Below, one piece after another: positions 42,677 through 56,660 of a stretch of DNA of 64,000 nucleotides. The position numbers and the translations under genes were made by a program. Source of the DNA: a gamma proteobacterium symbiont of Stewartia floridana (GTDB lineage: Bacteria; Pseudomonadota; Gammaproteobacteria; Chromatiales; Chromatiaceae); assembly GCA_003676145.1 (NCBI GenBank), contig NAUB01000021.1, forward strand, positions 186,001 through 250,000, read 5' to 3'. How positions within the stretch are numbered: position 1 is the stretch's first letter; every line of letters begins with the position of its first letter. Under the pieces are notes generated by a model that was not told the DNA's origin, did no database searches, and was given only the letters and a program-made list of their open reading frames with translations.

Positions 42677-43135
42677 AATTTTAATTCTGCTATACGTGTT
42701 AAAAGGTTGGTAATGATCATCATCCGCACGATCAATCACCTCAATGCTCCAGGTAGTCACAGAATAAAGTTGTAAAGTTATCGAACTTTTATCTCTGTTC
42801 CCGAGTCCGAACCGATATCCGGCTGACTGCTCTCCATGGCGGACTTCCCAGGTAATAGCAATTTCAAGGCCAAGGAATAAGTTATTGAAATATAATAATT
42901 AAATGTTATTCAATTGAGTTCCGATTTAAGTCAAAAGACCTAAAGCGGGTTATATGACCTAATTTTTATGTGGATTATCAGGTCAGTGATTTGCACAACT
43001 GTTTGAAAGATTTTTTAATAGACGAGAAGTGTTGATGAAAAGAGCGGGCACTATAGAGAAGCGTGTCGATGGGGCGGTTGATCTTATCTAAAGGTGAAGT
43101 CGACGCTACTGTTAGCCGAATAGATAAAAACTGTA
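42677..43135. promoter_or_regulatory. Divergent regulatory region upstream of the TonB receptor operon
   Basis: It contains ATTGAA (42884-42889) and TTCAAT (42909-42914) as an inverted pair, two direct copies of GACCTAA (42937-42943, 42956-42962) and an inverted AGGTCA at about 42980. These are candidate operator elements; no Fur, FNR or CRP box fits well. Confidence 0.35.
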
Positions 43136-43384
43136 ATGAGAAAAAAGTACATAGCCTTCAATAGTCGATTGAGCTTTCTGATACTGATAGGTGGTATGGC
43201 CATCATGATTATTGGTGTATCGATTCTGGCCAGCCTATGGCGAGGGGGCGATTTTGCGATTGCACTGTTTCTTGGTTGTATTTATGTGATTATGGTCAAT
43301 CTGATCTTCGCATCCGAAAACAGATTGACGGACAAAGCGGAATTCAATGCCGACAATAACTTGGATGATTCTGATGGCCTCTGA
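43136..43384 (+). CDS. Small two-segment membrane protein of unknown function
   Basis: An 82-residue protein with two clear transmembrane segments (LSFLILIGGMAIMIIGVSILASLW and FAIALFLGCIYVIMVNLIF) and an acidic C-terminal tail (KAEFNADNNLDDSDGL). No family recognised. It is divergent from the TonB receptor operon and converges with the ferritin-like gene. Confidence 0.65.
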   Translation: MRKKYIAFNSRLSFLILIGGMAIMIIGVSILASLWRGGDFAIALFLGCIYVIMVNLIFASENRLTDKAEFNADNNLDDSDGL

Positions 43385-43598: not shown

Positions 43599-44102
43599 TC
43601 AGACCCCACCACTGTGAATGGTTTCGTAATAGACCTTTTCCAGTTGGTTCTTATGTTCCGTCTCTTCATTGGCAAGGAATTGAAACAGCTCCTTGATCGG
43701 ACCATCCCCGGTGCTCTCGGCGAGGGCGTGGTACTGTTCCATGGCTGCATGTTCCCGCCCTAAGGCATATTGCAGTACCGACTGGTCGTCGGGCCTGTCA
43801 CCCAGTTGCGGAAGGTGGATGGCATCGGAGAACTTTTTATCGCTTGCCGGGATCTCCACCAGGGCTTGAACCTGCTGCTCAAGGTCGGGACGGTTCTTCA
43901 GTTCGGTAAACAGATCGAAATGGCGTTGCTCCTCTTCCGCCAACTCCTCTACCAGGTAGCGGATCTGTTTACTGACTTTAGGAATCAGATCCGTGTAGAA
44001 GTCCCGGGCGGTACGTTCGAACTCGATCGCGACTTCCAGAATCTCCGCCAGGCTTTTTTTCGATTTCAATCTGTCGTAACCACTGCTATGACCTTCAGAC
44101 AT
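43599..44102 (-). CDS. Ferritin-like/rubrerythrin-type di-iron protein
   Basis: A 167-residue four-helix protein. Metal ligand motifs in order are EFERTARDFY (about 30), EEEQRHFDLF (about 57), GREHAAMEQY (about 117) and NEETEHKNQL (about 147), the two ExxH-type pairs of ferritin-like di-iron sites. There is no rubredoxin domain. It begins 19 bp after the stop of the FAD/ferredoxin fusion and is probably the last gene of the Mbx/Mbs-like operon, where it could give peroxide protection or iron handling. Confidence 0.88.
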   Translation of the reverse strand: MSEGHSSGYDRLKSKKSLAEILEVAIEFERTARDFYTDLIPKVSKQIRYLVEELAEEEQRHFDLFTELKNRPDLEQQVQALVEIPASDKKFSDAIHLPQLGDRPDDQSVLQYALGREHAAMEQYHALAESTGDGPIKELFQFLANEETEHKNQLEKVYYETIHSGGV

Positions 44103-44121
44103 GGCGATGCCACTCCTGCTG

Positions 44122-45978
44122 TTATTGCTGATTCAACCACGCATCGATGCTGGCAGCCACTCGATGACCATCCGCGATGGCGTGGACCACATCCGGTCCA
44201 TTGACGCAATCACCAGCGGCCCATAGCCAGTCGACTGAGGTTCGACCCTGTGCATCGATACTGAGTCGGCCCCTTTGCCACTCCAGGGCTTCCGTCAGAT
44301 CGTCACCAAGCAGATTGTTATCCGACATCTGACCGATCGCTTCTATGACCATGTCAGCGGCGTGAATCTGCTCATCCTGCTCATCATATTCCGGTGCGAA
44401 GCGACCTTGCTCATCGAAGATGGAACGTACCTTCCAGGTCTTCAGTCCGATCAGTTTGTTGTTTTTGATGATGCAGGCCTGGGGGCCTCTTGCATCATAG
44501 ATCTCGATGCCTTCCTCACGACACTCCTTGATCTCCACCGGGTCAGCCAGAAAGTTGGCCATCTCTTCCAATGCGGTGACGGTCACCTGAACCTGACCAA
44601 ACTGCTGTTGCTGTTGACGGGCGAGGGTTCTGGCAATATCCATCGCCACGTTACCGCCACCAATGACAACGGCTTTCTGTGGAATCTCATACGCTTCATC
44701 ATCGGTGGTTCTGCGCAGAAGATCGATCGCTTTACGCACCTGCTTGTGGTCAGCGCCGGGAACCCGGGTGGAGCGACCAAGATGCAGACCAATGGCCAGA
44801 ACCACCGCATCATAATCCGCTTCCAGCTGCGCCATGGTGATATCCTTACCAACCTGAATACCGGTCTGGATCTTCACCCCCATGGAGGTGATCACATCGA
44901 TGTCCTGGTCGAGCATGTCGTAGGGCAGGCGGTATTCGGGAATGCCATAACGGGGCATGCCACCCGCTTCCTTGCGAGCCTCGAAGACGGTGACCTGGTG
45001 CCCTTTGCGTACCAGGTCATAGGCGGTCGTAAGACCGGCCGGTCCTGCACCGATAATGGCGATCTGCCTGCCGCTCAGATAGTCCGCTTTACCCTCCGCA
45101 GCAATCTGCTTGATCCGTTCATGATCCACCGAATCCATGGCGTAGCGTTTCAGCCAGCGGATCGATACGGGCTCACCCCGTCGACCGATCGAACAGGCAT
45201 CTTCGCAACGGTGGGTGCAGACCCGGCCGCAGACATGGGAGAAGGGGTTGCTCTGATAGATCCAGCGCACCGCTTCCTCCAGGTTGCCCTGCCAGATCGA
45301 GCGGATGTATTCGGGGGCGTCCATATGGGTAGGGCAGGCATCGTGGCACATACCGCACTGTACGCAGCGTGAGGCTTCGATCACCGCCTGCTGATCGGTG
45401 TAGCCGGCAACAATCTCATTGAAGTTATCGATTCGCTCTTCGGTTTCCAGCTCTGCCATCGGTTGTCGGTTCAGATCGAGCAGGTCGGAGTCACTGGTCT
45501 TCTGCCACCCTTCACCGTAGTACTCGCCATGGATACCGGTTTCATCCGGTAGTATGAAATAACTGTCGATCTCCTCCTGGGTACAGGTATGAACATATTC
45601 ACGGGAGAGCGAGATGGCGCTGGTCGGGCAGATGTCGACACACAGGGCGCACCAGCAGCAGCGGCCATAATCGATTGCCGGGCGAAGATTGCGTACTCCG
45701 TTGACCGGATCTTCCGGCAGATGGGGAACCTTGACCATGGTGATGGCAGCGTTGTCACACACTTTCTGGCAGGAGCTGCAACCAATGCACTTTTCATGAT
45801 CATTTAGATGAAAGCCCCGGTAGTTGTCTGCCGCCGGTCGGGGTTCCAGTGGAACCGTGACCGGTTTGCGCATGAAAAACTGCAGTGCCTTGAGCGGGCT
45901 GAGGATGGAGCCGGCCTCCTCATGCTCGATCGTCACGTTCTGTTTGCTCAGTTTGGCATCATCAATCGGTTTGGACAT
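44122..45978 (-). CDS. NuoI/MbhN-type ferredoxin fused to GltD/NfnB-type FAD-NAD(P)H oxidoreductase
   Basis: A 618-residue fusion. Residues 60-120 hold two 4Fe-4S clusters (C64, C67, C70, C74; and C107, C110, C113, C117 in CCWCALCVDICPT), as in NuoI/MbhN. Residues 200-265 are the GltD-type N-terminal iron-sulfur module (C205, C208, C211, C215; C250, C254, C258, C262). Then come the FAD site IAIIGAGPAGLTTAYDL (about 306-322), GGMPRYGIPEYRLP, and the NAD(P)H site VVIGGGNVAMDIA, with a closing WAAGDCVNGPDVVHAIADG. It sits where the ferredoxin subunit N sits in Mbx/Mbs operons, so it most likely links NAD(P)H to the membrane complex. Confidence 0.9.
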   Translation of the reverse strand: MSKPIDDAKLSKQNVTIEHEEAGSILSPLKALQFFMRKPVTVPLEPRPAADNYRGFHLNDHEKCIGCSSCQKVCDNAAITMVKVPHLPEDPVNGVRNLRPAIDYGRCCWCALCVDICPTSAISLSREYVHTCTQEEIDSYFILPDETGIHGEYYGEGWQKTSDSDLLDLNRQPMAELETEERIDNFNEIVAGYTDQQAVIEASRCVQCGMCHDACPTHMDAPEYIRSIWQGNLEEAVRWIYQSNPFSHVCGRVCTHRCEDACSIGRRGEPVSIRWLKRYAMDSVDHERIKQIAAEGKADYLSGRQIAIIGAGPAGLTTAYDLVRKGHQVTVFEARKEAGGMPRYGIPEYRLPYDMLDQDIDVITSMGVKIQTGIQVGKDITMAQLEADYDAVVLAIGLHLGRSTRVPGADHKQVRKAIDLLRRTTDDEAYEIPQKAVVIGGGNVAMDIARTLARQQQQQFGQVQVTVTALEEMANFLADPVEIKECREEGIEIYDARGPQACIIKNNKLIGLKTWKVRSIFDEQGRFAPEYDEQDEQIHAADMVIEAIGQMSDNNLLGDDLTEALEWQRGRLSIDAQGRTSVDWLWAAGDCVNGPDVVHAIADGHRVAASIDAWLNQQ

Positions 45979-45997
45979 CAGCGATTACCCATAGATC

Positions 45998-47140
45998 TCA
46001 ACGGTCAACTTCCGGCGGACAGGCATCCAGGGAGAACATGGTCTGGGCAATGTCCTCGATGCGCGATCCGACCGACATCTTCTCCAGCACCTGTACCGCG
46101 TGCATGGAGGAGGGGCCACGTACATGCACCCGGTAGGGTTTGGGGCCGCCATTGGAGACCACGTAGTAGCAGAGCTCCCCTTTGGAGGATTCAACCCGGG
46201 TGTAGGTCTCGCCGGCAGGGACATTCCAGGCCAGTGGATTGGGGATCGGCGCCCGAATCGGACCATGGATGTCAGGCAGGATCTCCACCACCTGGCGCAG
46301 GATGCGGATACTCTCCATCAACTCTTGGCGGCGCACCAGGGTACGTGCCCAGGCATCACCGCTCTCTTCAACCGGGATATCGAACGCCAGTTGATCGTAG
46401 ACCAGATAGGGGTCATCCCGACGTACATCGAAGGCCAGCCCGGTGGCACGCAGATTGGGGCCGGTGACCCCCCACTCCAGGGCCTGCTCACGGGACATCA
46501 CACCGGTGCCTTTGGCCCGCTTTACGAATACCTGGTTCTTGAAGAAGAGGTTATCGTAGTCAGGCAGGCGTGACTCGATGTAGTCGAGGGTTTCCGTCAG
46601 GCGTTGCAGGAATCCTTCCGGCAGTTCCCGGCGCACACCACCGGGGATGTTGTAGATGCTGTAGACCCGACCACCGGTGAACTCCTCGAACAGATCGAGC
46701 AGCAGATCCCGGTCGGCCACGCCCCAATACATGGTGCTGTACATACCGGTGGTTGCCGCATGACCGCCAAAGGTGAACAGATGGGCCGCGATGCGTGACA
46801 GCTCCAACTGCATTACCCGCAACCACTGAGCCCGTTGCGGGACTTTCAGTCCACACAACTCTTCAACCGCCATCGAGTAGCAGAGCTCCATCGGTGAAGG
46901 GTCAGGTACGCAGATACGAGGCACCAGGGCGATGTTCTGTATCCACAGCCGCTGCTCCATCAGTTTTTCAAAACCCCGGTGCAGATAACCGCCATCCGCC
47001 TTGGCCTCCAGCACGATATCCCCATGCAGCTTTACCTTCAGTGCATAGTTGCCTTCGATACCCGGATGGTTCGGACCGAAATTGAGTTCATACTCATTAC
47101 TCGGCGGCTGGCGCTGGGCTTCGTAATTCTCAGGTCTCAT
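45998..47140 (-). CDS. NuoD/MbhL-like large subunit with atypical active-site cysteines
   Basis: A 380-residue protein of the complex I 49-kDa/group 4 hydrogenase large-subunit family (GPNHPGIEG, GGYLHRGFEKLMEQR, WLRVMQLELSRIAAHL, SNGGPKPYRVHVRGPSSMHAVQVLEKM). Where NiFe hydrogenases have RxCGxC, this one has RICVPDP with Cys77 only. Where they end with DPCxxCxxR it has LDACPPEVDR with Cys374 only, and canonical NuoD lacks both cysteines. It is therefore intermediate, as expected of Mbx/Mbs-type subunits. A 165-bp repeat element separates it from the upstream NuoC-like gene. Confidence 0.9.
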   Translation of the reverse strand: MRPENYEAQRQPPSNEYELNFGPNHPGIEGNYALKVKLHGDIVLEAKADGGYLHRGFEKLMEQRLWIQNIALVPRICVPDPSPMELCYSMAVEELCGLKVPQRAQWLRVMQLELSRIAAHLFTFGGHAATTGMYSTMYWGVADRDLLLDLFEEFTGGRVYSIYNIPGGVRRELPEGFLQRLTETLDYIESRLPDYDNLFFKNQVFVKRAKGTGVMSREQALEWGVTGPNLRATGLAFDVRRDDPYLVYDQLAFDIPVEESGDAWARTLVRRQELMESIRILRQVVEILPDIHGPIRAPIPNPLAWNVPAGETYTRVESSKGELCYYVVSNGGPKPYRVHVRGPSSMHAVQVLEKMSVGSRIEDIAQTMFSLDACPPEVDR

Positions 47141-47167
47141 ATGGTTTCGCTTGTGTTTAAAATTGGG

Positions 47168-47332
47168 GTCCGCAAATGAACGCTAATGAACGCAAATGGA
47201 TTCAGTTGTTTTCTTTTGAGACAAAAGCAAACCTCATCTAACGCAATCAAACAAAATTGATCAAATGGTCGAAACTTTTGGTTTTCTAAATTCATCAATA
47301 ACATTTGCGTTTATTAGCGTTCATTTGCGGAC
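47168..47332. repeat. Inverted-repeat element (31-bp arms) inside the operon
   Basis: Arms 47168-47198 and 47302-47332 are inverted copies matching at 30 of 31 positions, each built of internal repeats of the type CGCAAATGAACG and CGCTAATGAACG. The 103-bp centre is AT-rich and has no gene. It lies between the NuoD-like and NuoC-like genes. Such short palindromic units can fold in RNA and are often dispersed in genomes, like REP or MITE elements. Confidence 0.75.
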
Positions 47333-47342
47333 TATAAACTCT

Positions 47343-47912
47343 TCACTTCTTCTTCTGACTGAAGCGCTGCTCTTCCGGTGGGATGATCACACCACCACCT
47401 TCGGCGACCAGCTCCTGTAACCACTCCGGGTTGTACTCCTGCCAGCTCAGGTGCTCGTTGATATAGGCTTCGCTGTCGAACTCCTTGCGCATCGGTGGCG
47501 GACCGTCCCATTCGGTGAGGATGAACTTCTCCATATTGGGACTGCCTTCGAAGTGGATGCCATACATCTCATGGATATCCCGTTCGAAAAAGGCGGCGGG
47601 CTGATAGAGGTCGTACACCGAGAGATAGACCCCGGGTTCACGGGCAATGCGTATATGGGCCGATACCAGGGAGTGACTCTCATAGGACCAGACGTGATAG
47701 ACCAGTTCAAACTCGTCATCATCGATCCAGTCGACACAGCTGATTGCCGAGAGGTGGATATAGCCGGCGCGTCCCTGCAGCAGTTCCAACAGAGCGGGCA
47801 GGGCATCTGCCGGTACATCGACCCGTACCCGACGACTGCTTTTACGACGAACTTCGATGCCTTCGATCTCTTTCAGGAGATTGTCCAGCCAGTGGGCGAC
47901 TTGCTGACTCAT
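47343..47912 (-). CDS. NuoC/MbhK-like subunit
   Basis: A 189-residue homologue of the 30-kDa subunit of complex I. The family phrase appears as AAFFERDIHEMYGIHFEGSPNMEKFIL (classical ExxDxxGIxFxGHPxLxxILxPEDW). The C-terminus GPPMRKEFDSEAYINEHLSWQEYNPEWL is typical too. It overlaps the stop of the NuoB-like gene by 4 bp (ATGA). It forms the peripheral arm with the NuoB- and NuoD-like subunits. Confidence 0.9.
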   Translation of the reverse strand: MSQQVAHWLDNLLKEIEGIEVRRKSSRRVRVDVPADALPALLELLQGRAGYIHLSAISCVDWIDDDEFELVYHVWSYESHSLVSAHIRIAREPGVYLSVYDLYQPAAFFERDIHEMYGIHFEGSPNMEKFILTEWDGPPPMRKEFDSEAYINEHLSWQEYNPEWLQELVAEGGGVIIPPEEQRFSQKKK

Positions 47913-48622
47913 TCAACCGGCTCCTTGATGTTGTGACCGAGGCGCATCTCAAGGGCCTCCAGAGGTTTCTGATGCTGTTCCAGCAGGCGGGTGTGTTGAC
48001 CCAGGGTGCCTTCACCCATCAGCTCATAGTGTTTCGCTTCGGTGATGATGTCAGTGGGGGTCTGCCAATCCTCGCCGAAGAGTTTCTGTTGATTGCCCAG
48101 GTAGTAGTCATAGTTGCGGTAGTAGTCCTGCCAACTGTCGGCTTCACCGCTGTTGATCCGATCCATCAGTTTCTGCAGACCGCTGATCACCGCCTCGGGT
48201 CTCGGCATACAACCGGCGATATAGAGATCGACGGGCATGTATTCATCGAGTTTTTTCGCGGTTGCATAGCTCTGCCAGTACATGCCGCCATTGACTGTGC
48301 AGGAGCAGATCCCCACCACATATTTCGGTGACCCCATCTGCTCGTAGGTGAGGATCACCCGTTTCAGGGTTTTGATCGAGACATAGCCGGTAATCAACAG
48401 AATGTCCGCCTGTCTGGGGGAGACCATGGGTTGAATGCCAAGCCGTTCCATATCGAAACGGGAGGTCATCGCCGGCGGCAGTTCGATCGCGCCGCAGCCG
48501 GTACAGTAGTGGAGAATGAACAGGGAGCGCGAGCGGCAGAAGCGCACCAAATCATCGAACACCCGGGCCAGGGGGTTACCCTTTTTCTCTTCGACTACCG
48601 GTATCTTTTGTAATCTGCTCAT
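47909..48622 (-). CDS. NuoB/MbhJ-like small subunit with CxxC proximal cluster
   Basis: About 237 residues from ATG 48622 (MSRLQKIPVV); a start at 48628 is equally possible, and the frame further upstream is non-homologous. The 4Fe-4S site has HYCTGCGAIELPP with Cys40 and Cys43, as in hydrogenase small subunits, whereas complex I NuoB has two adjacent cysteines. Other ligands are Cys106 in GICSC and Cys138 in AGCMPRPEAV. DILLITGYVSIKTLKRVI and QMGSPKYVVGI are family features. This supports a hydrogenase/Mbx lineage for the complex. Confidence 0.88.
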   Translation of the reverse strand: MSRLQKIPVVEEKKGNPLARVFDDLVRFCRSRSLFILHYCTGCGAIELPPAMTSRFDMERLGIQPMVSPRQADILLITGYVSIKTLKRVILTYEQMGSPKYVVGICSCTVNGGMYWQSYATAKKLDEYMPVDLYIAGCMPRPEAVISGLQKLMDRINSGEADSWQDYYRNYDYYLGNQQKLFGEDWQTPTDIITEAKHYELMGEGTLGQHTRLLEQHQKPLEALEMRLGHNIKEPVE

Positions 48623-48764
48623 AACCATCACCAAAGTCTTTGGGTTAACTTGCCTGTAGTGTTTCGCTACTGGCTCGTCAGTCCGGCATTGCCGGTATTC
48701 ATTTGCCTTGAGAGTCAATCACTGTTTCACAAGGACTCGCCATACTCTCCCTGCAGGCGTAAAT

Positions 48765-49661
48765 TCACATCACGAAAGCCAAACCGATCAGTCCCAGCAT
48801 CACCGGCCATTTCCACATCAGACGCAACAGATCCTCGGTGCGATAACGGGGAAACAGGTAGGCGATACTCACTGGAATGGCCAGCACCAGAAAACTCTTG
48901 ATCAGAAAATCGAACCAGGTGGTGCCGCCACCGAGGAACAGACTCACATAGAGAACCGAGGTGGTGTAGAGCTGGAAGCACTGCATGACGAAAAGGCCAC
49001 CCAGATACTTACCACTCATCTCAACCATCGGACCGGTGGCAATCTCGGCCGGCGCGATATAGATCTCGAAAGGCTGTTTACCCAGAGAGGCATGCATGGC
49101 AATCAGACCGGCGATGGCCAGCAGTGGCATCTCAACCACGCCCCAGGTTGCGAAACCACCAGCCTGCTGTGTGGCGATGATCTCCACCAGATTGGTGGTG
49201 CCGGCAGCATAGGCGACGCCAAAGATGACGATCACCAAGGGAATGTCATAGGCCAGCATGGCAGTCAGCGCGCGGGCGATGCCGATCGAGCCATTGGGAT
49301 TGGCACACTGACCGACACCCAACGCCAGGCCGAGAGACGGAATCATCATCAGATAGAGCAGGGTGATCAGGCCTCCCTTTTCCGCAATGCCGTTCATACC
49401 CGGTACCGGTAGCAGGGTCTCCGCAGCAATGTAACCGCCCATTGCCATGACGATTCCGATGTCATGAATCAGGCCGTGTGAGACCTGCGTGCGTTTGCCA
49501 TGTAGCTTGATGATGTCGTAGAGCGGTTGAAAGAAAGGTGGTCCGATACGACGCTGAATCCTTGCCGCAATACGCCGCATCATCAGTACCATCATCATGC
49601 CGACGATAAAGGCAATCAGCGGCATCAGGGTCAGCTCTATGAGAAGTTCGATCGGTGCCAT
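48765..49661 (-). CDS. NuoH/MbhM-like membrane subunit
   Basis: A 298-residue protein with about eight transmembrane segments. RIQRRIGPPFFQPLYDIIKLHGKR corresponds to the NuoH RxGPxxVGPxGLLQPxADxxKL motif, and PAEIATGPMVEMSGKYLGG to the conserved acidic E-channel loop near the quinone/substrate site. It joins the peripheral arm to the ion-pump part. The reduced motif is nearer to MbhM/hydrogenase-4 HyfC than to NuoH. The start abuts the stop of the antiporter-like gene (shared base at 49661). Confidence 0.9.
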   Translation of the reverse strand: MAPIELLIELTLMPLIAFIVGMMMVLMMRRIAARIQRRIGPPFFQPLYDIIKLHGKRTQVSHGLIHDIGIVMAMGGYIAAETLLPVPGMNGIAEKGGLITLLYLMMIPSLGLALGVGQCANPNGSIGIARALTAMLAYDIPLVIVIFGVAYAAGTTNLVEIIATQQAGGFATWGVVEMPLLAIAGLIAMHASLGKQPFEIYIAPAEIATGPMVEMSGKYLGGLFVMQCFQLYTTSVLYVSLFLGGGTTWFDFLIKSFLVLAIPVSIAYLFPRYRTEDLLRLMWKWPVMLGLIGLAFVM

Positions 49662-51538
49662 TAGAAAACCACCCAGGCAATTATGAACAGTGCCGTACTT
49701 AACAGATAGAATTCAGAGTTGGCACGGCGGTAGATACCCTGCATGCCAAGGGAGAGAAACTCGACCAGTGAGGTAATGCTGTTTTCCAGCCACTGAAAAC
49801 TGCCGCGATACCAGCCACGGATCAGATGCATCAGGCCGGAGTAGAAGTTATCACTGTACTGGTAGCGCACGTCGGCGGTGAGAAAGTGACCACCGGCATA
49901 GTTGTCGAGCTGATGGACCCTTTTGCTGGGCCCGGCTGAGTAGAAGATCACAGCACCGATACCGAAGCCGGCGAACAGCACGCCGATCACCCAGATCATA
50001 TCGAGGCTGCCACTGGAGGAATCGATACCGCCGAGGGTGATCTCGGGACCAGTGAGACCAATCGTCTGCAGTGCGGCGGTTACCCAGGTGAGCGGGATGC
50101 CGGGCAGCAGTCCGGTGACGAAGATCACGCCAGCCAGAATCAGCATCGGAGTCATCATGCTCCAAGGGGCTTCGCGAATGTGCTCGTGTTCCACTCTCAG
50201 CTGGCCAAGAAACATATTGTGAATCAGCTTATAGACCGACAGGATGGTGCCCAGCGTGCCGATGATGGTGCCGAGGAAAAGCAGTGGCATGCCATCTTCA
50301 AGCAGCGATCGATAGACCAGCCATTTGGAGACGAAACCGTTCATCGGAGGCAGGCCCGCCAGGCCGATGATGCCGGTCAGCAGCACCAGAAAGGAGAGGG
50401 GCATCCGCGCAACCAAACCACCCAGCTTATTCAGATCAGCGGTGCCTGTACGATGCATGACGGCAAACACCGCCATCAACAGCGCCGCCTGACAGGCCGC
50501 ATAGTTGAGCACATGCAGCAGACCACCGGCGGCCCCCAGGGAGTTGGCGGTGACCAGTCCGAGCAACATGTAACCACCCTGACCGATGCCGTGCCAGGCC
50601 AGCAGATAGCGGGCGTCATTCTGTTTCAGGGCGGTATAGGTGGGAAAGATGATGGTAAACACCGCAATCCAGGCCAGCAGGTCCCGGGCATCGATCAGGG
50701 TGAAGGGTATCTTGAGGCTGTCGATGTTGACGATGCCGAACAGTTTCACCAAAACCAGCAGAATGGCAAACAGACCCATACGGGAAGAGATGGCACCCAG
50801 AAAGGCACTGCCGGGTCCCGGGGTTTCCGCATAGGCAGCCGCCTGCCAGAGATGAAAGGGGAGCAATCCCATCTTGATGCCGAAACCGCTGCCGAAGAGT
50901 AAGACCAGCATCCAGAGCTGGCCGGTGCTCATTTTTTCAACCGCGATCAATATGGCTTCATATTGGAGAGAACCGGCCGCTGCATAGACCAGTGCAATGC
51001 CACCGAAGATCGACATCCCGCCGACAACTGCATAGGTGATGTAACGTATGGCCGCCTTGGTGGCAACGCCACCGGCAACCGCCATCAGCAGGAAGCCCGC
51101 CCAACTGACCAGTTCCCAGCCGATGAAGAGGGAGAGCAGATCGCCGCTGGCGAGCAGGATCAACATGGTGAAGACATTCAAAGCCATCGCCAGGTGAAAC
51201 AGCCAGACATTGCCTCCCTGCTGTTTGAATTTTCGCTCCCACTCACCGCATGAGAACCAACTGGTAAGCAGTGCCGCCACCAGGGTGATCAGTGCAAAGA
51301 ACCAGCTCAGGGCATCGAAACGCCAGGAGAGGTCCTGTCCCATCACCGAGAGGCTCACCTCGGAGGCGATGGGATCCCCGCCATAACCCAGCGCGCCCAT
51401 CTTGATCAGGACCAGCAGTTGCCCAGCATAGAGAATGGTGACCATCCAGCCCACCGCCAGACCGCGTCCCAGTATCAGGGCAACCAGCACAGTGGCAGCC
51501 GAAAAGATCAAAAGCTCATCCAATAGGCTGAAAATCAC
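49661..51538 (-). CDS. NuoL/MrpD-like antiporter-type subunit (second copy, H'-like)
   Basis: A 625-residue membrane protein with about 14 transmembrane segments of the proton_antipo_M family. Key residues: the TM5 Glu in FIGWELVSWAGFLL, the TM7 Lys in GFGIKMGLLPFHLWQ, and the discontinuous helices around LKQNDARYLLAWHGIGQGGYMLLG. The C-terminus is extended with extra segments. Together with the MrpD-like gene just upstream it gives two antiporter-like pumps in the complex, as in Mbx/Mbs (H and H'), while MBH has one. The start overlaps the MrpD-like stop by 4 bp. Confidence 0.9.
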   Translation of the reverse strand: MIFSLLDELLIFSAATVLVALILGRGLAVGWMVTILYAGQLLVLIKMGALGYGGDPIASEVSLSVMGQDLSWRFDALSWFFALITLVAALLTSWFSCGEWERKFKQQGGNVWLFHLAMALNVFTMLILLASGDLLSLFIGWELVSWAGFLLMAVAGGVATKAAIRYITYAVVGGMSIFGGIALVYAAAGSLQYEAILIAVEKMSTGQLWMLVLLFGSGFGIKMGLLPFHLWQAAAYAETPGPGSAFLGAISSRMGLFAILLVLVKLFGIVNIDSLKIPFTLIDARDLLAWIAVFTIIFPTYTALKQNDARYLLAWHGIGQGGYMLLGLVTANSLGAAGGLLHVLNYAACQAALLMAVFAVMHRTGTADLNKLGGLVARMPLSFLVLLTGIIGLAGLPPMNGFVSKWLVYRSLLEDGMPLLFLGTIIGTLGTILSVYKLIHNMFLGQLRVEHEHIREAPWSMMTPMLILAGVIFVTGLLPGIPLTWVTAALQTIGLTGPEITLGGIDSSSGSLDMIWVIGVLFAGFGIGAVIFYSAGPSKRVHQLDNYAGGHFLTADVRYQYSDNFYSGLMHLIRGWYRGSFQWLENSITSLVEFLSLGMQGIYRRANSEFYLLSTALFIIAWVVF

Positions 51539-53007
51539 AATTGGCCTCCGGGTGTTACCGGCATCACGGTTTGTATGTAGAGCTCGGCATTCTTTGCCTC
51601 AGTCGCAATCGCTTGCAGTCCATCACCGATGGGAGCGATGAGTACCGTTGCCGCCAGCAGTGTGATGCCGAAGAGTGAAGCCGTAGCCAGGGAGAGGCCG
51701 GGTAGGTGTTGATGCTCAGGCTGTTCGGTGGTGGTCCCGGCTGAACTGTAGAGCTTCGCAACGATGCGGAACAGATAGCTTGTCTCGATAACCGTGGCCA
51801 AGAGAAATACCAGCAGACCAATCAGATAGAGTGGCTCACTCTGAGCAGCCAACTCGGTGATCAGGGTGAATTTTGCCCAGAAGCCGGGCAGCGGGGGAAC
51901 ACCAACCAGGGAGAGGGCGAACAGGGTAAACAGTGCCGCACCCACCGGTGACCTTTTGGCTGCCCCGGTCAACCGTTCGAGTGACCCACCCCAGCCGTCA
52001 GCCAGCATGAAGAGTCCGGTTTTGATCACCAGATGGTGAAGTGACAGGGCCAGCAGGGCCAACAGCCCCCGTTCATCCGGTAAGGAGAGGGCGATAAAGA
52101 CAATGCCCAGCTGACCGATCGAGGAGAAGCCGAGCATACGTCGCATATCCTTGGCGCGCCAGGCTGCAAATTCACCGCTGACGACTCCGAGTATGCCAAG
52201 TATGAGAACGATCTGTACCGCTTCCGGCTGATCAAATATCAGCACCAGCAGTCGCAGAATGATCAGCAGTGCCAGCTTCGACAGCAATCCGGCCAGGAAG
52301 CCCGAGAGCCGGCTGGAGGCAGTGGCGTAGATCTCCGGCACCCAGGCGTTGACCGGAAACAGCTCCGCTTTGACACCGATACCGATAAGGATCAGCAGGT
52401 AGGCGGTCAATCCCAGTCTGTCGTGCAGTAGCTCTGGGGCCAGTTGCGCCAGATGGGCCAGGTTGAGGGTGCCGGTCTGACTGTAGATCATTGCGATACC
52501 GAGCAGGGTCAACACGGAACCGATACCGCTCAATATCAGATAGCGAAAGGTTGCGGCGTAGGCTGCCGAGGTAGTGGAAGCAGCCACCAGCCCGAAGGTG
52601 GCTACAGCGGCCAGTTCGTAAAAGACATACAGATTGAACAGATCGCCGGAGAGCGCCAGTCCGGTCGAGGCGGCGACCAGTAGCAGCATCAGTGCCTGTC
52701 GTCTGGCGGTATCCTGATTCAATGCATAGGGCCAGCAGATCAATCCCAGCAGTTGCACCGCAAAGGCGAACAGCAGGGCAAGAGAGTCCAGGTAGAGATT
52801 GATGCCGTAGGGAGCATCAAATCCGCCAATCACGATCGACAATGGCAGGCTGATGTCGCTAAACCAGAGATTACCCAACAACCAACAGCCATAACCCAGA
52901 ATGATCGGTCCGAGCCATAAGCCGATTGCCTGGGAGAGACGCATCAACACAGGCAGTAAGAAGGCGCCGAGCAGAGGCAGGGCGATGGTCAAAACCAGGT
53001 TGTTCAT
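51535..53007 (-). CDS. MrpD/NuoN-like antiporter subunit
   Basis: A 490-residue membrane protein of the proton_antipo_M family with 13-14 transmembrane segments. Key residues: Glu in LYVFYELAAVATFGL and Lys in GIGVKAELFPVNAWVPEIY, the proton- or Na+-path residues. AWRAKDMRRMLGFSSIGQLGIV is the usual loop. It overlaps the genes on both sides by 4 bp, as in mrp/mnh operons. Confidence 0.9.
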   Translation of the reverse strand: MNNLVLTIALPLLGAFLLPVLMRLSQAIGLWLGPIILGYGCWLLGNLWFSDISLPLSIVIGGFDAPYGINLYLDSLALLFAFAVQLLGLICWPYALNQDTARRQALMLLLVAASTGLALSGDLFNLYVFYELAAVATFGLVAASTTSAAYAATFRYLILSGIGSVLTLLGIAMIYSQTGTLNLAHLAQLAPELLHDRLGLTAYLLILIGIGVKAELFPVNAWVPEIYATASSRLSGFLAGLLSKLALLIILRLLVLIFDQPEAVQIVLILGILGVVSGEFAAWRAKDMRRMLGFSSIGQLGIVFIALSLPDERGLLALLALSLHHLVIKTGLFMLADGWGGSLERLTGAAKRSPVGAALFTLFALSLVGVPPLPGFWAKFTLITELAAQSEPLYLIGLLVFLLATVIETSYLFRIVAKLYSSAGTTTEQPEHQHLPGLSLATASLFGITLLAATVLIAPIGDGLQAIATEAKNAELYIQTVMPVTPGGQL

Positions 53008-53483
53008 GCATCGCCTCCTCGGGATTCAGCGCTATGAGCTGGAAGCGGTGACAGGGGACGCTCACCGAGCGGGGCATCCTGACTGATGTCCCTGCGGATT
53101 CCCGCACTGGCGGCTATTTCAGCATCCATCTTTTCCGCCACATCACGACGCTTCAGGTTGCCGTAACGCTGGCGGATACGAATCAATATGCTGACAGCCA
53201 GTGCCTGGATGCCGACGCCAATCACGATTGCGGTCAGCACCATCGCCTGCGGAACCGGATCGACCATCGCCGGTTGTTCGGCTCGTTGCAACAGGATCGG
53301 CGCCACCGCATCCCAGCGATAGCCGGAGAGTACCAGCATCAGGTTGGCGCCCGCTTCGGCAATCACCAGCGCAAGTACCATTCGGAACAGATGGCTGCTG
53401 AGCACCACACCGGCCAGGCCGATAATCACCAGCCCCAGGGCTGTGGCATAGAGTATCAGTTCAAGTGTCACGCCCGGGATCAT
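53004..53483 (-). CDS. MrpC/NuoK-like subunit
   Basis: A 159-residue protein with three transmembrane segments like NuoK/MnhC: LILYATALGLVIIGLAGVVL, FRMVLALVIAEAGANLMLVLSG (with the conserved Glu) and PVPQAMVLTAIVIGVGIQALAVSILIRI. The C-terminal 45 residues are a polar tail (RYGNLKRRDVAEKMDAEIAA...), longer than usual. Overlaps of 4 bp on both sides. Confidence 0.9.
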   Translation of the reverse strand: MIPGVTLELILYATALGLVIIGLAGVVLSSHLFRMVLALVIAEAGANLMLVLSGYRWDAVAPILLQRAEQPAMVDPVPQAMVLTAIVIGVGIQALAVSILIRIRQRYGNLKRRDVAEKMDAEIAASAGIRRDISQDAPLGERPLSPLPAHSAESRGGDA

Positions 53484-54166
53484 TGTTCAGACTCCGTTTG
53501 TGCCAGATTGGAGAGCAGGCTTGCCAACTCGGCACCGACCTTCAAACCCACTGCGATATAGAGCAGTGGCAGGGTGCCGGCCGATATCAGCGCACCAAGG
53601 GTATCCTGATTGAGCATCGGTTGCAGAAATGCCTGGCCCTCTGCCAGGGCGGCGAGTCCGATGAGAATAAAGCTGGCGCCGGCGAAGGCTTCGATGACAC
53701 TCAGAATGGAGTGGTGCAGGCGCGCGCCGGGTCTGGCCAGCAGAGGCAGGAAAAAGGCTGCCGCAAGAATCACACCGCCCTGAAATCCGCCACCCGGTGT
53801 CAGATGGCCATGAAAAATGATGTAGAAACCGATCGTCAGCAGAAACGGAAAGATCAAGGCGCCGCCGTGAAAGAGTACGAATCCACCTTTGCGCTGTGTG
53901 CCTGTGGTGGTATGCCGACGACCCAGCACCAGTCCGGCGGCCGACGCGGCGGCAAACAGGATGGCAAGCTCCCCGAGCGTATCGATACCCCGGTAGCCCA
54001 GCACCACTGAGGTGACAATGTTGGCAGCGCCGACCTCCTGGGGAGAGGCGGACTGTATCGCTTCGCCGATGCGCATCGGCGGACTGCCGAAATCGATGCC
54101 GCTGGCAATCGCCAGCAGCATGAAACCCAGGCCGCCGGCAAACAACAGGCCGGTGAGATTACGCAT
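53480..54166 (-). CDS. MbhE-MrpB fused subunit
   Basis: A 228-residue membrane protein. Residues 1-85 (TGLLFAGGLGFMLLAIASGI, ANIVTSVVLGYRGIDTLGE, LAILFAAASAAGLVL) match the MbhE/MrpA C-terminal segment, where YRGxDTLGE is a signature. Residues 90-228 (GGALIFPFLLTIGFYIIFHG, HLTPGGGFQGGVILAAAFFL, ... PLLYIAVGLKVGAELASLL) are MrpB. So two proteins that are separate in Mbh are joined. Overlaps MrpC-like by 4 bp. Confidence 0.87.
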   Translation of the reverse strand: MRNLTGLLFAGGLGFMLLAIASGIDFGSPPMRIGEAIQSASPQEVGAANIVTSVVLGYRGIDTLGELAILFAAASAAGLVLGRRHTTTGTQRKGGFVLFHGGALIFPFLLTIGFYIIFHGHLTPGGGFQGGVILAAAFFLPLLARPGARLHHSILSVIEAFAGASFILIGLAALAEGQAFLQPMLNQDTLGALISAGTLPLLYIAVGLKVGAELASLLSNLAQTESEQ

Positions 54167-54470
54167 CGTCTTTCCCCTTGCTTGAAGCGCTCAGCAGATT
54201 ACTATTTTCGCTGCCGCTATCGATCTGCCACAAGCCCAGACGGCGCAATGCCAAAGCCAGGATCAGACTGCTCAGGCCGGCGCCCACGGCCGCTTCGGTC
54301 ATCGCCACGTCCGGTGCCCGCATCAGGGCAAACAGCAGCGCCAAACCGAGTGACACCACGGAGGCGGCCGCGACCGCAGCGAGATGGTTTTTCACCACCA
54401 GTGCCAGCACCGCACTGCTTAACATCATGATTCCCAGAATCAGAGCAATCCAAAGTTCTACTTCACTCAT
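54159..54470 (-). CDS. MbhD-like subunit
   Basis: A 103-residue protein with three transmembrane segments. LVVKNHLAAVAAASVVSLGLALLFALMRAPDVAMTEAAVGAGL is the MbhD domain (the MrpA C-terminal part), including the conserved APDVAxTEAAVGAGL. It overlaps the next gene by 8 bp. It appears here as a separate gene and no MrpA N-terminal part is present in the operon, as in Mbh/Mbx. Confidence 0.88.
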   Translation of the reverse strand: MSEVELWIALILGIMMLSSAVLALVVKNHLAAVAAASVVSLGLALLFALMRAPDVAMTEAAVGAGLSSLILALALRRLGLWQIDSGSENSNLLSASSKGKDDA

Positions 54471-54784
54471 CTGTCAGCCTCTCCAGGTTGGCTTACGCTG
54501 GCTTTGCTCCAGGGTTTTACCCCAGCCTTAAGCAGCGCCCGGGCAATGGTGGAAGAGCCGAGTGGATTGGTAATCAGAATCAACACGCCGATTACCAGCA
54601 ACTTCGACCACCAGGCAGGGTAGAGCAGAGCAATACCGATCAACAGGCAGAGCGAGCCAAGGGTCACCGCCTTGGTGCCTGCCTGGATGCGGTTGTAGAC
54701 ATCGGGCATACGGATCAGTCCAATGGCACCGAACAGGGTGAAGGCGGCACCGACAACAAGAAACAGATCGGCAATCAGTCTCAT
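54467..54784 (-). CDS. mrpG: MrpG-like subunit
   Basis: A 105-residue protein with three transmembrane segments: LFLVVGAAFTLFGAIGLIRMPDVYNRIQAGTKAVTLG carries the MnhG signature (GLIRMPDxYxRxHAxTKAxTLG). The C-terminus has ITNPLGSSTIARALLKAG. It overlaps the MbhD-like gene by 4 bp and abuts MrpF at the shared base 54784. Confidence 0.9.
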   Translation of the reverse strand: MRLIADLFLVVGAAFTLFGAIGLIRMPDVYNRIQAGTKAVTLGSLCLLIGIALLYPAWWSKLLVIGVLILITNPLGSSTIARALLKAGVKPWSKASVSQPGEADR

Positions 54785-55047
54785 CAGCCGTTCCCCTCAA
54801 TCGTTCGGGCGATGGCGACCACACCGACAAACGCCAGGGTGCCGTAGATCAGCGCCACATCCAGATAGAGTGGGCTGCCCAGCAGGGCGGCGAGTATCAC
54901 CAGCCCGGATGTCGTTATCACCGCCAGGGTATCGGCGGCGACCACCCTATCCGGCGCTGTGGGGCCCAGGATCAGGCGCAACAGACTGAGTAGTACCGCA
55001 GCACCCAGCAAGCCCAGTGCGACGATCTCCAATAGGGTTAATGTCAT
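54784..55047 (-). CDS. mrpF: MrpF-like subunit
   Basis: An 87-residue protein with three transmembrane segments. LILGPTAPDRVVAADTLAVI is the MnhF signature (RxxxGPTxxDRVVAxDTL), followed by ALLGSPLYLDVALIYGTLAFVG. Overlaps MrpE by 4 bp. Confidence 0.92.
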   Translation of the reverse strand: MTLTLLEIVALGLLGAAVLLSLLRLILGPTAPDRVVAADTLAVITTSGLVILAALLGSPLYLDVALIYGTLAFVGVVAIARTIEGNG

Positions 55048-55571
55048 AACACGAAGCCTTTCAGGTGTTGTTCAAATTTGCTGGTGATGGCTTTGGTGGT
55101 GGATAACCGATCACTGCCCGGGGGAGCGTCGACCCAATGCACCAGCAGCACCTCATCCTGTACATCGACCGTCAGGGTGCCGGGGGTCAGGGTAATACTG
55201 TTCGCCAGAATCAGACGGCCAAGTGATGATTTGAGTTTGGTCTCCACCTCCACAACGGCCGGTTGCAAAGGCAGTGAAGGACTCAGTACGCGCCGGGCCA
55301 TGTCGAGGTTGGCTTGAACCAGCGCCACGATAAAAGTGCCGAGGTAGCGTAGCAAAGGAAGCAGGGCGCTCGGTGAGATGATCAGCCCGGCGAGGATGCT
55401 GAGGTGAGGCCGGCTTGCCAGGGTGACAATCAGAGCGACCACCACTCCGGCGGCCATCTCCGCTGTGTCCAGATTGCCGACCAACAACATCCAGAGTGTA
55501 AACACAAGCAGGTAGAGAAACAGTCCGTGGACAAAACCGGGTTCAGGTTGTTGTATGGACTTTGTCGTCAT
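55044..55571 (-). CDS. mrpE: MrpE-like subunit, first gene of the Mbx/Mbs-like operon
   Basis: About 175 residues from ATG 55571 (MTTKSIQQPEPG), which has AAAGG 11 nt upstream; a GTG at 55583 overlaps that site and is rejected. Two to three transmembrane segments are followed by LVQANLDMARRVLSPSLPLQPAVVEVETKL and LGRLILANSITLTPGTLTVDVQDEVLLVHWVDA, the MnhE signature. The spacing to the Anbu-locus gene upstream is 110 bp and a palindrome (55599-55614) lies there, so a promoter is likely. Confidence 0.92.
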   Translation of the reverse strand: MTTKSIQQPEPGFVHGLFLYLLVFTLWMLLVGNLDTAEMAAGVVVALIVTLASRPHLSILAGLIISPSALLPLLRYLGTFIVALVQANLDMARRVLSPSLPLQPAVVEVETKLKSSLGRLILANSITLTPGTLTVDVQDEVLLVHWVDAPPGSDRLSTTKAITSKFEQHLKGFVL

Positions 55572-55598
55572 ACTCGGAGTCACCTTTGTTGTGGTTGT

Positions 55599-55681: not shown

Positions 55682-56626
55682 TCATGCCGCAGACATCAGT
55701 GCAGGTGGGAAATAGGCTTTTGAAATCGCTTCATGCAGGGTGCCGAAATCGATCTGTAAATCGTCGATAAACTCATGCAGTACGTTGTTATCCATCTTAT
55801 CGGTCAACATCTCTGTCAGGCGGGTATCGATCTTTTTGAGTACTTTTAACGGTGTTCTGTTTTTTGGCAGACGGGAGAGATTGAAACGGATGTTTTCCGT
55901 GCAATAGCTAATTGAACGGGGAAAACCCGGTGTTTTGAATAGAAACTGAAGAACGTCCTTACGATTGATTCTGACCTGCATATGTTGTCGATACATCTGA
56001 TGAGCACTGAGTGACTTCAACATACTCATCCATAAAATGTCTTCGAATGGGGTCAGTTCGGGTGCCTCTTCCGGCAGTGGATTTTCAGACCGCACATCGA
56101 TGATTCGCGTGGTCATGTCGGCACGCTCCAGTTTGCGCCCCAGATTGAGAAAGTTGTAGGCCGTGTCGTGATTCATACTGCCGGCCAGTAGCCCGGTCAT
56201 CAATTGTGAGCCGGCAATGATATGTTCCAGGTAAGTTTGTCGGCCCTGACGGGAAAAGCTGCTCTGTTTACGCTCCAGGGCAGTCTGATAGTAACCGTTG
56301 ATCGACTCCCAGGCTTCCCGCGGTAATATCTCGCGTATGGTGCGGGCGTTCTCACGCAATGCGCAGAGAGTGCTGATGATGGAGCTGGAGTTGGATTCAT
56401 CGCTGATCAGAAAATTCGCTACCCGGCGCTCGGTAAACTCCGGATGACGTGCCAGATAGAACTCGTAGCAACCCAGCAGGTTGATCAGTACATCCCAGCC
56501 TGGGGCAACCTTCGGTGGCAGGTCCAGCATCAGATTGGTATTGACAGTGATCAGACGTGCGGTGTTTTCAGCCCGTTCCTGATAACGTCCTATCCAATAT
56601 ATGGTCTCTGCAACTCGGGATAACAT
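55682..56626 (-). CDS. Alpha-E domain protein (DUF403)
   Basis: A 314-residue, all-helical protein with the family start MLSRVAETIYWIGRYQERAENTARLI and GWDVLINLLGC, SSSIISTLCALRENARTIREILPREAWESINGYY. The end IDDLQIDFGTLHEAISKAYFPPA is also typical. Function is unknown, but the gene constantly co-occurs with the circularly permuted ATP-grasp and transglutaminase genes. Here it is the third gene after both, 34 bp from the ATP-grasp gene. Part of the Anbu locus. Confidence 0.92.
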   Translation of the reverse strand: MLSRVAETIYWIGRYQERAENTARLITVNTNLMLDLPPKVAPGWDVLINLLGCYEFYLARHPEFTERRVANFLISDESNSSSIISTLCALRENARTIREILPREAWESINGYYQTALERKQSSFSRQGRQTYLEHIIAGSQLMTGLLAGSMNHDTAYNFLNLGRKLERADMTTRIIDVRSENPLPEEAPELTPFEDILWMSMLKSLSAHQMYRQHMQVRINRKDVLQFLFKTPGFPRSISYCTENIRFNLSRLPKNRTPLKVLKKIDTRLTEMLTDKMDNNVLHEFIDDLQIDFGTLHEAISKAYFPPALMSAA

Positions 56627-56660
56627 TACTCGCTCCTTAGATGGTTGTTGCTCATCTCAA

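Follow-up and report, generated by a model that had tools for sequence, protein, structure and literature searches.

What does a sulfur-oxidising symbiont of lucinid clams, Candidatus Thiodiazotropha, do with a 13-gene membrane complex related to complex I when it also has a complex I of its own? The window analysed here, a single stretch of 64,000 nucleotides, had been given a preliminary description with thirteen minus-strand genes and a ferritin-like gene at 43599-55583, and all 13 ORFs and the ferritin-like ORF were found there (Table 1). In a profile search they matched the expected families far above the cut-off: MNHE, MrpF, MrpG, MbhD, MnhB, Oxidored_q2, two Proton_antipo_M, NADHdh, Oxidored_q6, Complex1_30kDa, Complex1_49kDa, Fer4_7+Fer4_20+Pyr_redox_2 and Rubrerythrin, with a weak match to MbhE. 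The genes had been said to overlap mostly by 4 bp, which is too strong: the ORF coordinates give exactly 4 bp at 6 of the 13 junctions, 1 bp at two, 8 bp at one, and four gaps of about 19, 19, 46 and 202 bp. The archaeal MBX/MBS gene order with its doubled antiporter subunit was recognised correctly, as the order A B C D E G H H' M J K L N is that of a Thermococcus locus (L112) analysed with the same queries. Likewise, no NuoA, NuoJ, NuoE, NuoF, NuoG or separate canonical NuoI lies within this region, as described, and a separate canonical nuo operon is present on another contig of the host (PF00346, 391 bits, G000:C5), so the operon is not the only nuo operon of the genome. The complex is conserved in 21 of 22 congeneric genomes, and many other families have it too, which excludes chance.

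Table 1. Features of the operon and its surroundings, with positions in the window.
Feature	Position	Strand	Evidence
MbsA/MrpE-like subunit	55044..55583	-	PF01899 124.6 bits; opens the operon in every complete locus
MbsB/MrpF-like subunit	54784..55047	-	PF04066 62.6 bits; Asp33 and Asp39 in 52/52
MbsC/MrpG-like subunit	54467..54784	-	PF03334 86.1 bits; Pro74 in 53/53
MbsD (MbhD) subunit	54159..54470	-	PF13244 69 bits
MbsE-like subunit (MbhE and MrpB domains)	53480..54166	-	PF04039 75.4 bits; PF20501 22.3 bits, weak
MbsG/MrpC-like subunit	53004..53483	-	PF00420 69.3 bits
MbsH/MrpD-like antiporter subunit, first pump	51535..53007	-	6u8y_H 213.5 bits vs MrpD 146
MbsH' second antiporter-like subunit	49661..51538	-	6u8y_X 167.7 bits vs MbhH 122.8
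MbsM/NuoH-like membrane anchor	48765..49661	-	6u8y_M 182.7 bits vs next 69.7
MbsJ/NuoB-like subunit, proximal, proposed catalytic [4Fe-4S] cluster	47909..48718	-	6u8y_J 232 bits vs NdhK 126
MbsK/NuoC-like subunit	47343..47912	-	PF00329 91.5 bits
MITE-like inverted-repeat element between K and L	47168..47332		31-nt arms, 97% complementary
MbsL/NuoD-like catalytic-chamber subunit	45998..47140	-	6u8y_L 397 bits vs Thermus Nqo4 269
MbsN/NuoI-like 2x[4Fe-4S] ferredoxin domain fused to NfnL/GltD-type FAD/[4Fe-4S] NAD(P)H oxidoreductase	44122..45978	-	
Rubrerythrin/ferritin-like protein, conserved companion	43599..44102	-	PF02915 50.6 bits

The solved structure that best matches every subunit searched (L, J, H, H', M and the ferredoxin half) is the MBS of Pyrococcus furiosus, and the residues of the catalytic core were compared with it. 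The J subunit, whose true start may lie at about 48622-48628, aligns with MbsJ without gaps and retains the ligands C28, C93 and C123 of the three-cysteine proximal cluster with its shortened motif; it has a CTGC motif as in MbsJ C25/C28, and the host NuoB reads LACC. In MBS, sulfur is reduced at this three-cysteine cluster, which loses iron when oxidised and is restored by ferrous iron, and C25, C85 and C385 are dispensable (PMC7684303). The equivalent of C25 is absent in 12 homologues, and the motifs RICVPDP and SLDACPPEVDR of the window L subunit match MbsL C85 and C385.

The positions equivalent to the quinone-site residues H38 and Y87 of Nqo4 are E and V in the L subunit. The Tyr is missing in all MBX-type relatives and the His in nearly all, counts to be read with the fact that the loci were themselves found partly by the L-subunit motif. 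Two of the four NiFe cysteines are missing as well, one being kept in each pair, unlike in the Thermococcus hydrogenases of the same residue table, and a group 4 [NiFe] hydrogenase (Mbh, Hyf) is thereby ruled out. The check by trees that had been suggested agrees with this assignment: the 82 MBX/MBS rows of the L tree form one clade (UFBoot/SH-aLRT 100/99) apart from canonical NuoD, the host's own NuoD falls in the other clade with canonical complex I, and the J subunit is likewise outside canonical NuoB. Within the MBX/MBS clade, the window L belongs to a Pseudomonadota clade (100/100) whose sister is Spirochaetota. These residues and trees, together with the lack of the NuoEFG NADH module, rule out canonical complex I.

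Pump residues were found in both antiporter-like subunits, as expected of an MBX/MBS complex. The H subunit retains the equivalents of E138, K250 and K393, with H330 replaced by Leu; H' retains E128, K217, H336 and K399, with K248 replaced by Arg. By sequence position, the Na+ module residues, namely the MbsC proline (Pro74, taken as the counterpart of P83) and the MrpF aspartates, are present in all sequences compared (Table 1).

In the fusion protein, the ferredoxin domain occupies about residues 23-158 and the NfnL/GltD-type module about 165-618; 6u8y_N covers 23-158 and NfnL (5jca_L) covers 170-617. The whole protein scores 815 bits against NF010590/PRK13984, below the model cut-off of 946, and a fused NfnL module occurs in 40 of the 47 complete loci. 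The cofactor-specificity rule based on the NADP motif YRR has been tested biochemically in DsrL (PMC7596348). In the window flavoprotein the motif table gives TALE in place of YRR, so the pyridine nucleotide is probably NADH, not NADPH. The usual reading there is ALE, and the locus of Parasulfuritortus cantonensis (L041) has ALQ instead. The Glu ligand of the Nfn proximal cluster is changed to Lys in 65 of 65 fused relatives and a new Cys appears in 66 of 66; one cluster ligand is predicted to have been swapped, Glu to Cys, in all 66. These two changes make electron bifurcation in the flavin module unlikely, and the operon contains no NfnS gene.

The ferritin-like gene could have been an unrelated neighbour, which its linkage rules out: it comes next in 24 of the 24 Pseudomonadota loci with room for it and in 0 of 24 other loci, and in Spirochaetes, the sister clade, a domain homologous to it is fused to the flavoprotein. 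The ferritin-like protein belongs to the system as a conserved part. Its probable role is to bind the NfnL module and to shield the exposed cluster, which is prone to oxidation, or to restore its metal. The 202-bp gap between K and L could likewise have hidden a gene or a conserved regulator, which is ruled out by its content: the inverted-repeat element found there has about 100 matches in the genome and is not in the K-L gap of the sister species loci (L031, L035, L036). It is probably a passenger.

Among gammaproteobacterial genomes, the complex was found in 17 of 369. All 17 carry dsrA, compared with 117 of the 369 overall (hypergeometric p = 1.4e-9, over 15 families, phylogeny ignored); this association says of the bearers only that they are sulfur bacteria. 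Groups in which the complex is present include symbionts of lucinids and tubeworms, Thiomargarita, Chromatiaceae, Sedimenticola and Parasulfuritortus. In the L tree, Spirochaetes, Thermotogae and Bacteroidales make up the sister clade and most of the other bearers, and since these are generally regarded as fermenters or anaerobes, the ancestral role is suggested to have been reductive.

Given the family, gene order, residues, fusion, ferritin linkage and dsr link read from the sequence, we consider it somewhat better than an even chance that the product of the operon is an NADH:sulfane-sulfur oxidoreductase of the MBX/MBS type that sits in the membrane, translocates ions and would reduce stored sulfur under low oxygen. 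The preliminary description had proposed electron exchange between NAD(P)H and sulfane sulfur, ferredoxin or quinone; this is supported and narrowed, as quinone is unlikely with E and V at its site and NADPH improbable without YRR. In the scheme we infer, which extends to substrate, NADH preference, ion, direction and ferritin role, NADH would reduce the FAD of the NfnL-like half, and electrons would pass through the two [4Fe-4S] clusters of this half and the two clusters of the MbsN-like domain to the three-cysteine proximal cluster of J. There, S-S bonds of polysulfide or persulfide, admitted to a chamber formed by L, J and M, would be reductively cleaved, and the redox energy would be passed to the two antiporter-like pumps (H and H') and the Mrp-type Na+/H+ module to build an ion gradient. 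The most likely mode in a sulfur-storing host would be one in which stored sulfur serves as the electron sink when oxygen is short and sulfide is released, with aerobic respiration left to canonical complex I. The calculated span from NADH to S0 is about 60-230 mV depending on sulfide, or roughly 1-3 ions. At millimolar sulfide little driving force is left, and the reaction might run backwards.

Machines of the complex I type can be reversed, and it is possible, if rather unlikely, that the complex works in the opposite direction, with an ion gradient driving electrons from sulfide or persulfide to NAD+. CO2 fixation would then be supplied by reverse electron transport at low cost, with chemosynthetic symbionts making NADH without the detour via ubiquinol and complex I. 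The bearers are dsr-positive sulfur bacteria, and at 1-20 mM sulfide the electrons need lifting by only about 60-140 mV to reach NADH (1-2 ions per pair); however, the fermenters and anaerobes of the sister clade and most other bearers suggest a reductive origin. The expression data from the Riftia symbiont also argue against this direction, since the genes co-expressed with its putative Mrp-Mbx include those for rTCA, sulfur-globule protein and hydrogenase, a set of rTCA and anaerobic functions, while those for the CBB cycle, rDsr, Sox and cbb3 oxidase are not among them (PMC11636981). The same rTCA co-expression would fit a complex in which N exchanges electrons also or mainly with ferredoxin and ions are pumped by a ferredoxin:NAD+ or ferredoxin:sulfur oxidoreductase reaction, for instance to serve rTCA or nitrogen fixation. 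MBS is fed by ferredoxin via MbsN (PMC7684303), and nifH is present in the host. We nevertheless regard this as improbable, as the NfnL module is fused in most complete loci, its Glu-to-Lys change and new Cys depart from bifurcating NfnL, and nifH occurs in only 5 of the 17 MBX-positive genomes (p = 0.056 vs other dsr-positive genomes). This last count rules out a dedicated electron supply to nitrogenase.

The strict co-occurrence with dsr, and the ability of the MBS mechanism to cleave organic as well as inorganic polysulfides in a dimethyltrisulfide assay (PMC7684303), would also suit an acceptor from the cytoplasmic sulfur relay, in the form of a disulfide, trisulfide or persulfide of a protein or small molecule, such as DsrC trisulfide or glutathione persulfide; outside Pseudomonadota many bearers are not known to oxidise sulfur by Dsr, and we give this acceptor little credence. 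An alternative NADH:quinone oxidoreductase, in effect a second complex I, would share the fold and chamber with complex I, but it is the reading we find hardest to credit given the lost quinone-site residues, the position of L and J outside canonical NuoD and NuoB, a CxxC instead of CC in J, and the complex I that the host already has.

Purple sulfur bacteria turn stored sulfur into sulfide when oxygen or light is missing, and in a 2001 study, cited in PMC12380324, thiotrophic symbionts reportedly reduced stored sulfur to sulfide when oxygen was missing. Beggiatoaceae also reduce stored sulfur to sulfide under such conditions (PMC4959497). In the literature examined, no enzyme is named for this reduction, save the polysulfide/thiosulfate reductase proposed for the nematode symbiont Ca. 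Thiosymbion. The operon, found in those groups, is a concrete and energy-conserving candidate for it. Parasulfuritortus cantonensis is a named strain that might be cultured, making the question directly testable, and the specific predictions on structure are the NADH-for-NADPH motif switch, the universal swap of a cluster ligand and the ferritin partner.

Complexes of this type are already known; the variant with NADH and ferritin, and where it occurs, seem not to have been described. Our literature searches found no mention of MBX in Thiodiazotropha. A 2024 Riftia study named a 'putative Mrp-Mbx complex' in Candidatus Endoriftia and placed it in a co-expression network with its direction unknown (PMC11636981); in the text searched of that study, we found no mention of an NADH module, a ferritin partner or the distribution of the complex. 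It is almost certainly the same complex, since the Escarpia and Lamellibrachia symbionts carry it with 82-83% identity in L. Canonical complex I (Nuo) has in common with the operon the core subunits B, C, D and H and the antiporter-like subunits, whereas here NuoEFG, NuoA, NuoJ and the quinone residues are missing, the clade is separate, and the host has its own Nuo. NfnL/NfnB, an electron-bifurcating NADH-dependent ferredoxin:NADP oxidoreductase, and DsrL have a module with FAD and two clusters to which residues 165-618 of the fusion are homologous; in the fusion, by contrast, the proximal-cluster ligand Glu117 is lost, a new Cys lies nearby, and the NfnS partner and YRR are absent. The MBX of Thermotoga maritima is a 13-subunit, S0-induced putative sulfur oxidoreductase (PMC9431562) and a bacterial homologue of MBS, and Thermotogae loci (L082, L091, L108) have the same MbsN-NfnL fusion; unlike the host, Thermotogae are fermentative anaerobes and no sulfur oxidisers, their loci have no adjoining ferritin-like gene, and some carry YRR (NADPH-type) and others LE. 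With the MBS of P. furiosus (PDB 6u8y; PMC7684303), which is the top match of each subunit searched, the operon shares gene order, two antiporter-like subunits with a Na+/H+ module, the three-cysteine proximal cluster, the loss of quinone and NiFe residues, and the C85/C385 equivalents. MBS, however, receives its electrons from ferredoxin via a separate MbsN and lacks a flavin, whereas here a ferritin-like gene follows and MbsN is fused to an NfnL-type flavoprotein with a predicted preference for NADH; because of this fusion, we assign the complex to bacterial MBX rather than to MBS in the strict sense.

The ORFs that the preliminary description had listed for the operon are real and lie where it placed them, and each could be assigned to a family using Pfam and NCBIfam profiles. 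Its statement that neighboring genes mostly overlap by 4 bp was too general: such overlaps occur at 6 of the 13 junctions, and the rest are overlaps of 1 or 8 bp or short gaps, the longest being 202 bp. The likeness to the archaeal MBS/MBX gene order that it pointed out holds, because the same queries recovered an identical order in a Thermococcus contig (L112). The gap between the K and L genes contains a MITE-like element with 31-nt inverted arms at a spacing of 103 nt; the arms have ~100 genomic matches, often paired, and the element is missing from the K-L gap of sister species (L031, L035, and L036). The gene set directly upstream is apparently unrelated to the complex.

Coordinates of the operon, its surroundings, and the host dsrA genes
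Feature	Position	Strand	Content or context
MBX operon	window 43599-55583	minus	MrpE, MrpF, MrpG, MbhD, MbhE/MrpB, MrpC, two MrpD/NuoN-like antiporter subunits, NuoH, NuoB, NuoC, NuoD, ferredoxin-NfnL/GltD fusion, rubrerythrin-like ferritin
Ferritin-like gene	window 43599-44102	minus	next after the N fusion
MITE-like element	window 47168-47332		K-L gap
Upstream gene set	window 55685-61489	minus	alpha-E, circularly permuted ATP-grasp, transglutaminase/DUF2126 amidoligase
TonB-dependent receptor gene	window 40511-42760	minus	downstream of the ferritin-like gene
Small ORF	window 43136-43384	plus	between the ferritin-like and receptor genes
dsrA, divergent copy	G000:C13:79574-80776		host genome
dsrA, divergent copy	G000:C36:103210-104412		host genome

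Among homologous solved chains, the best match of L (NuoD-like), J (NuoB-like), H and H' (antiporter-like), M (NuoH-like), and the ferredoxin half of N was the corresponding chain of the P. furiosus MBS structure (6u8y). L scored 397 bits against MBS versus 269 against Thermus Nqo4; compared with the next homologous chain, the scores were 232 versus 126 for J, 213 versus 146 for H, 168 versus 123 for H', and 183 versus 70 for M. Residues 23–158 of N scored 82 versus 51 bits, and the other half of N was matched by NfnL-type chains. A phylogeny of 93 L-type sequences was built with IQ-TREE using PMSF, along with a quick version. The 82 MBX/MBS sequences, including window L, formed one clade (100/99), and five canonical NuoD proteins fell outside it, among them those of the host, an Escarpia symbiont, and Parasulfuritortus. 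Window L fell inside a Pseudomonadota clade of 36 rows (100/100), which together with Spirochaetota made a clade of 41 rows (100/99). All MBX J subunits likewise split off from NuoB/NdhK, although branches close to the root were less well supported, and a separate canonical nuo operon is present on host contig C5. The affiliation suggested in the preliminary description was thus borne out: judged by its sequence, the complex is a bacterial MBX, an MBS-type ion-pumping oxidoreductase.

The site of polysulfide reduction in MBS is a proximal [4Fe-4S] cluster held by just three Cys ligands (MbsJ C28, C93, and C123); its unique iron is stripped on oxidation, which abolishes activity, and the activity returns with ferrous iron (PMC7684303). 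MBS lacks the quinone-site residues Nqo4 H38 and Y87, and its C25, C85, and C385 are dispensable (PMC7684303). Window J aligns with MbsJ without gaps, keeps all three ligands, and reads CTGC, whereas the host's own NuoB reads LACC; the GTGC of 12 J homologs reflects loss of the dispensable Cys. Window L has E at H38 and V at Y87 and keeps one Cys from each former NiFe pair. Counts of the L motifs are biased, as these motifs were among the criteria for gathering the loci; the bias bears less on the counts for J, N, and ferritin. Most of the proposed pumping charges in H and H' are kept in the window proteins, as are the proline and aspartates of the Na+ module.

The last subunit, N, joins an MbsN-like two-cluster ferredoxin domain to an NfnL/GltD-type FAD module, a fusion found in 40 of the 47 complete operons; the archaeal members of the 47 have MbsN alone. 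Alignment with NfnL indicates that window N keeps all seven NfnL cysteines of the region. In NfnB, the fourth ligand of the proximal cluster is a glutamate (E117), and a YRR motif, linked to NADPH use in DsrL, holds the NADP phosphate (PMC7596348). The E117 position is Lys in 65/65 N fusions and 66/66 have a new Cys at residue 250, which suggests a cluster ligated by cysteines alone and plain electron transfer instead of bifurcation. The YRR position reads x-L/M-E in nearly all Pseudomonadota and in Spirochaetes, and YRR is present in Bacteroidales, Mesoaciditoga, and others, so cofactor use appears split within the family; with TALE at this position, window N is predicted to use NADH. In a subclade from WOR-3, Bipolaricaulota, Sumerlaeota, and a Thermoplasmata archaeon (L097, L102, L103, L105, L107, and L109), the two L cysteines are gone (RxNVxEP, LYVxAPEIDR) as in complex I, yet the quinone residues are also absent; several fusions of this subclade lack YRR.

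The ferritin-like gene adjoins the N fusion in 24/24 Pseudomonadota loci that extend far enough to hold it and in 0/24 other loci. In the Spirochaete sister group, the N fusion protein carries ~150 additional C-terminal residues. One such extension matched a ferritin profile at 40 bits, with a profile-profile probability of 90%, and its predicted structure (pLDDT 79) had the ferritin-like diiron protein 1vjx as best Foldseek match (TM 0.76, E 0.0016). Because a ferritin-like domain is fused to N there, the companion belongs physically to the system in the Spirochaete lineage and probably in both lineages. By alignment reading alone, the Spirochaete domains seem to lack some diiron ligands, and docking or structure may therefore be their role as well as chemistry on iron or peroxide.

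The host genome (4.55 Mb, 97% complete) carries nifH and two divergent dsrA genes. Window L shares 100% identity with the L subunit of a Candidatus Thiodiazotropha MAG and 99% with that of Ca. T. taylori, and the L gene occurs in 21 of 22 genomes of Thiodiazotropha, sulfur-oxidizing symbionts of lucinid clams. The complex was found in 17 of 369 gammaproteobacterial genomes, spanning 15 families; dsrA is present in 17/17 of these versus 117/369 overall (p = 1.4e-9, a statistic that ignores phylogeny) and nifH in 5/17. Named bearers, largely sulfur-storing bacteria, include Thiodiazotropha, Sedimenticola, Lamellibrachia and Escarpia symbionts, Chromatiaceae, Thiomargarita, and Parasulfuritortus. 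Other genera of the host's family carry a second, only distantly related MBX subtype (L028 in genome G030, L029 in G029) with 48–49% identity in L, no C-terminal L Cys, and the same fusion, followed by the ferritin-like gene; it groups with Fermentibacteria in the tree and was therefore probably acquired independently. In Thiomargarita and Thiotrichaceae contigs (L060-L063, L065, and L066), MBX genes appear scattered, as J-K-L without N or as a lone L with 8–10 kb of other DNA upstream.

We prefer a reductive role, in which NADH would feed the ion-pumping complex via the fused NfnL-like module, accompanied by the ferritin-like protein, and stored sulfur would be the electron sink at low oxygen. 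With an E0' of -270 mV for S0/HS-, the calculated span from NADH to S0 is ~60–230 mV from 20 mM to 1 uM sulfide, which suffices for ~1–3 ions per electron pair. At its lower limit this driving force is small, so reversal is possible, and the main rival is reverse electron transport from sulfide to NAD+ by the same complex. It is established that Beggiatoaceae respire the sulfur they store (PMC4959497). For Riftia symbionts, a putative Mrp-Mbx complex, its direction given as unknown, has been placed in a co-expression network together with genes for rTCA, sulfur-globule protein, and hydrogenase; the genes for CBB, rDsr, Sox, and cbb3 oxidase are not co-expressed with it (PMC11636981). The searchable open-licence literature yielded no account of the NADH-type variant, the ligand swap, the ferritin partner, or the dsr-linked distribution; the MBX kind itself is already known, and a 2024 publication mentions it for a tubeworm symbiont.
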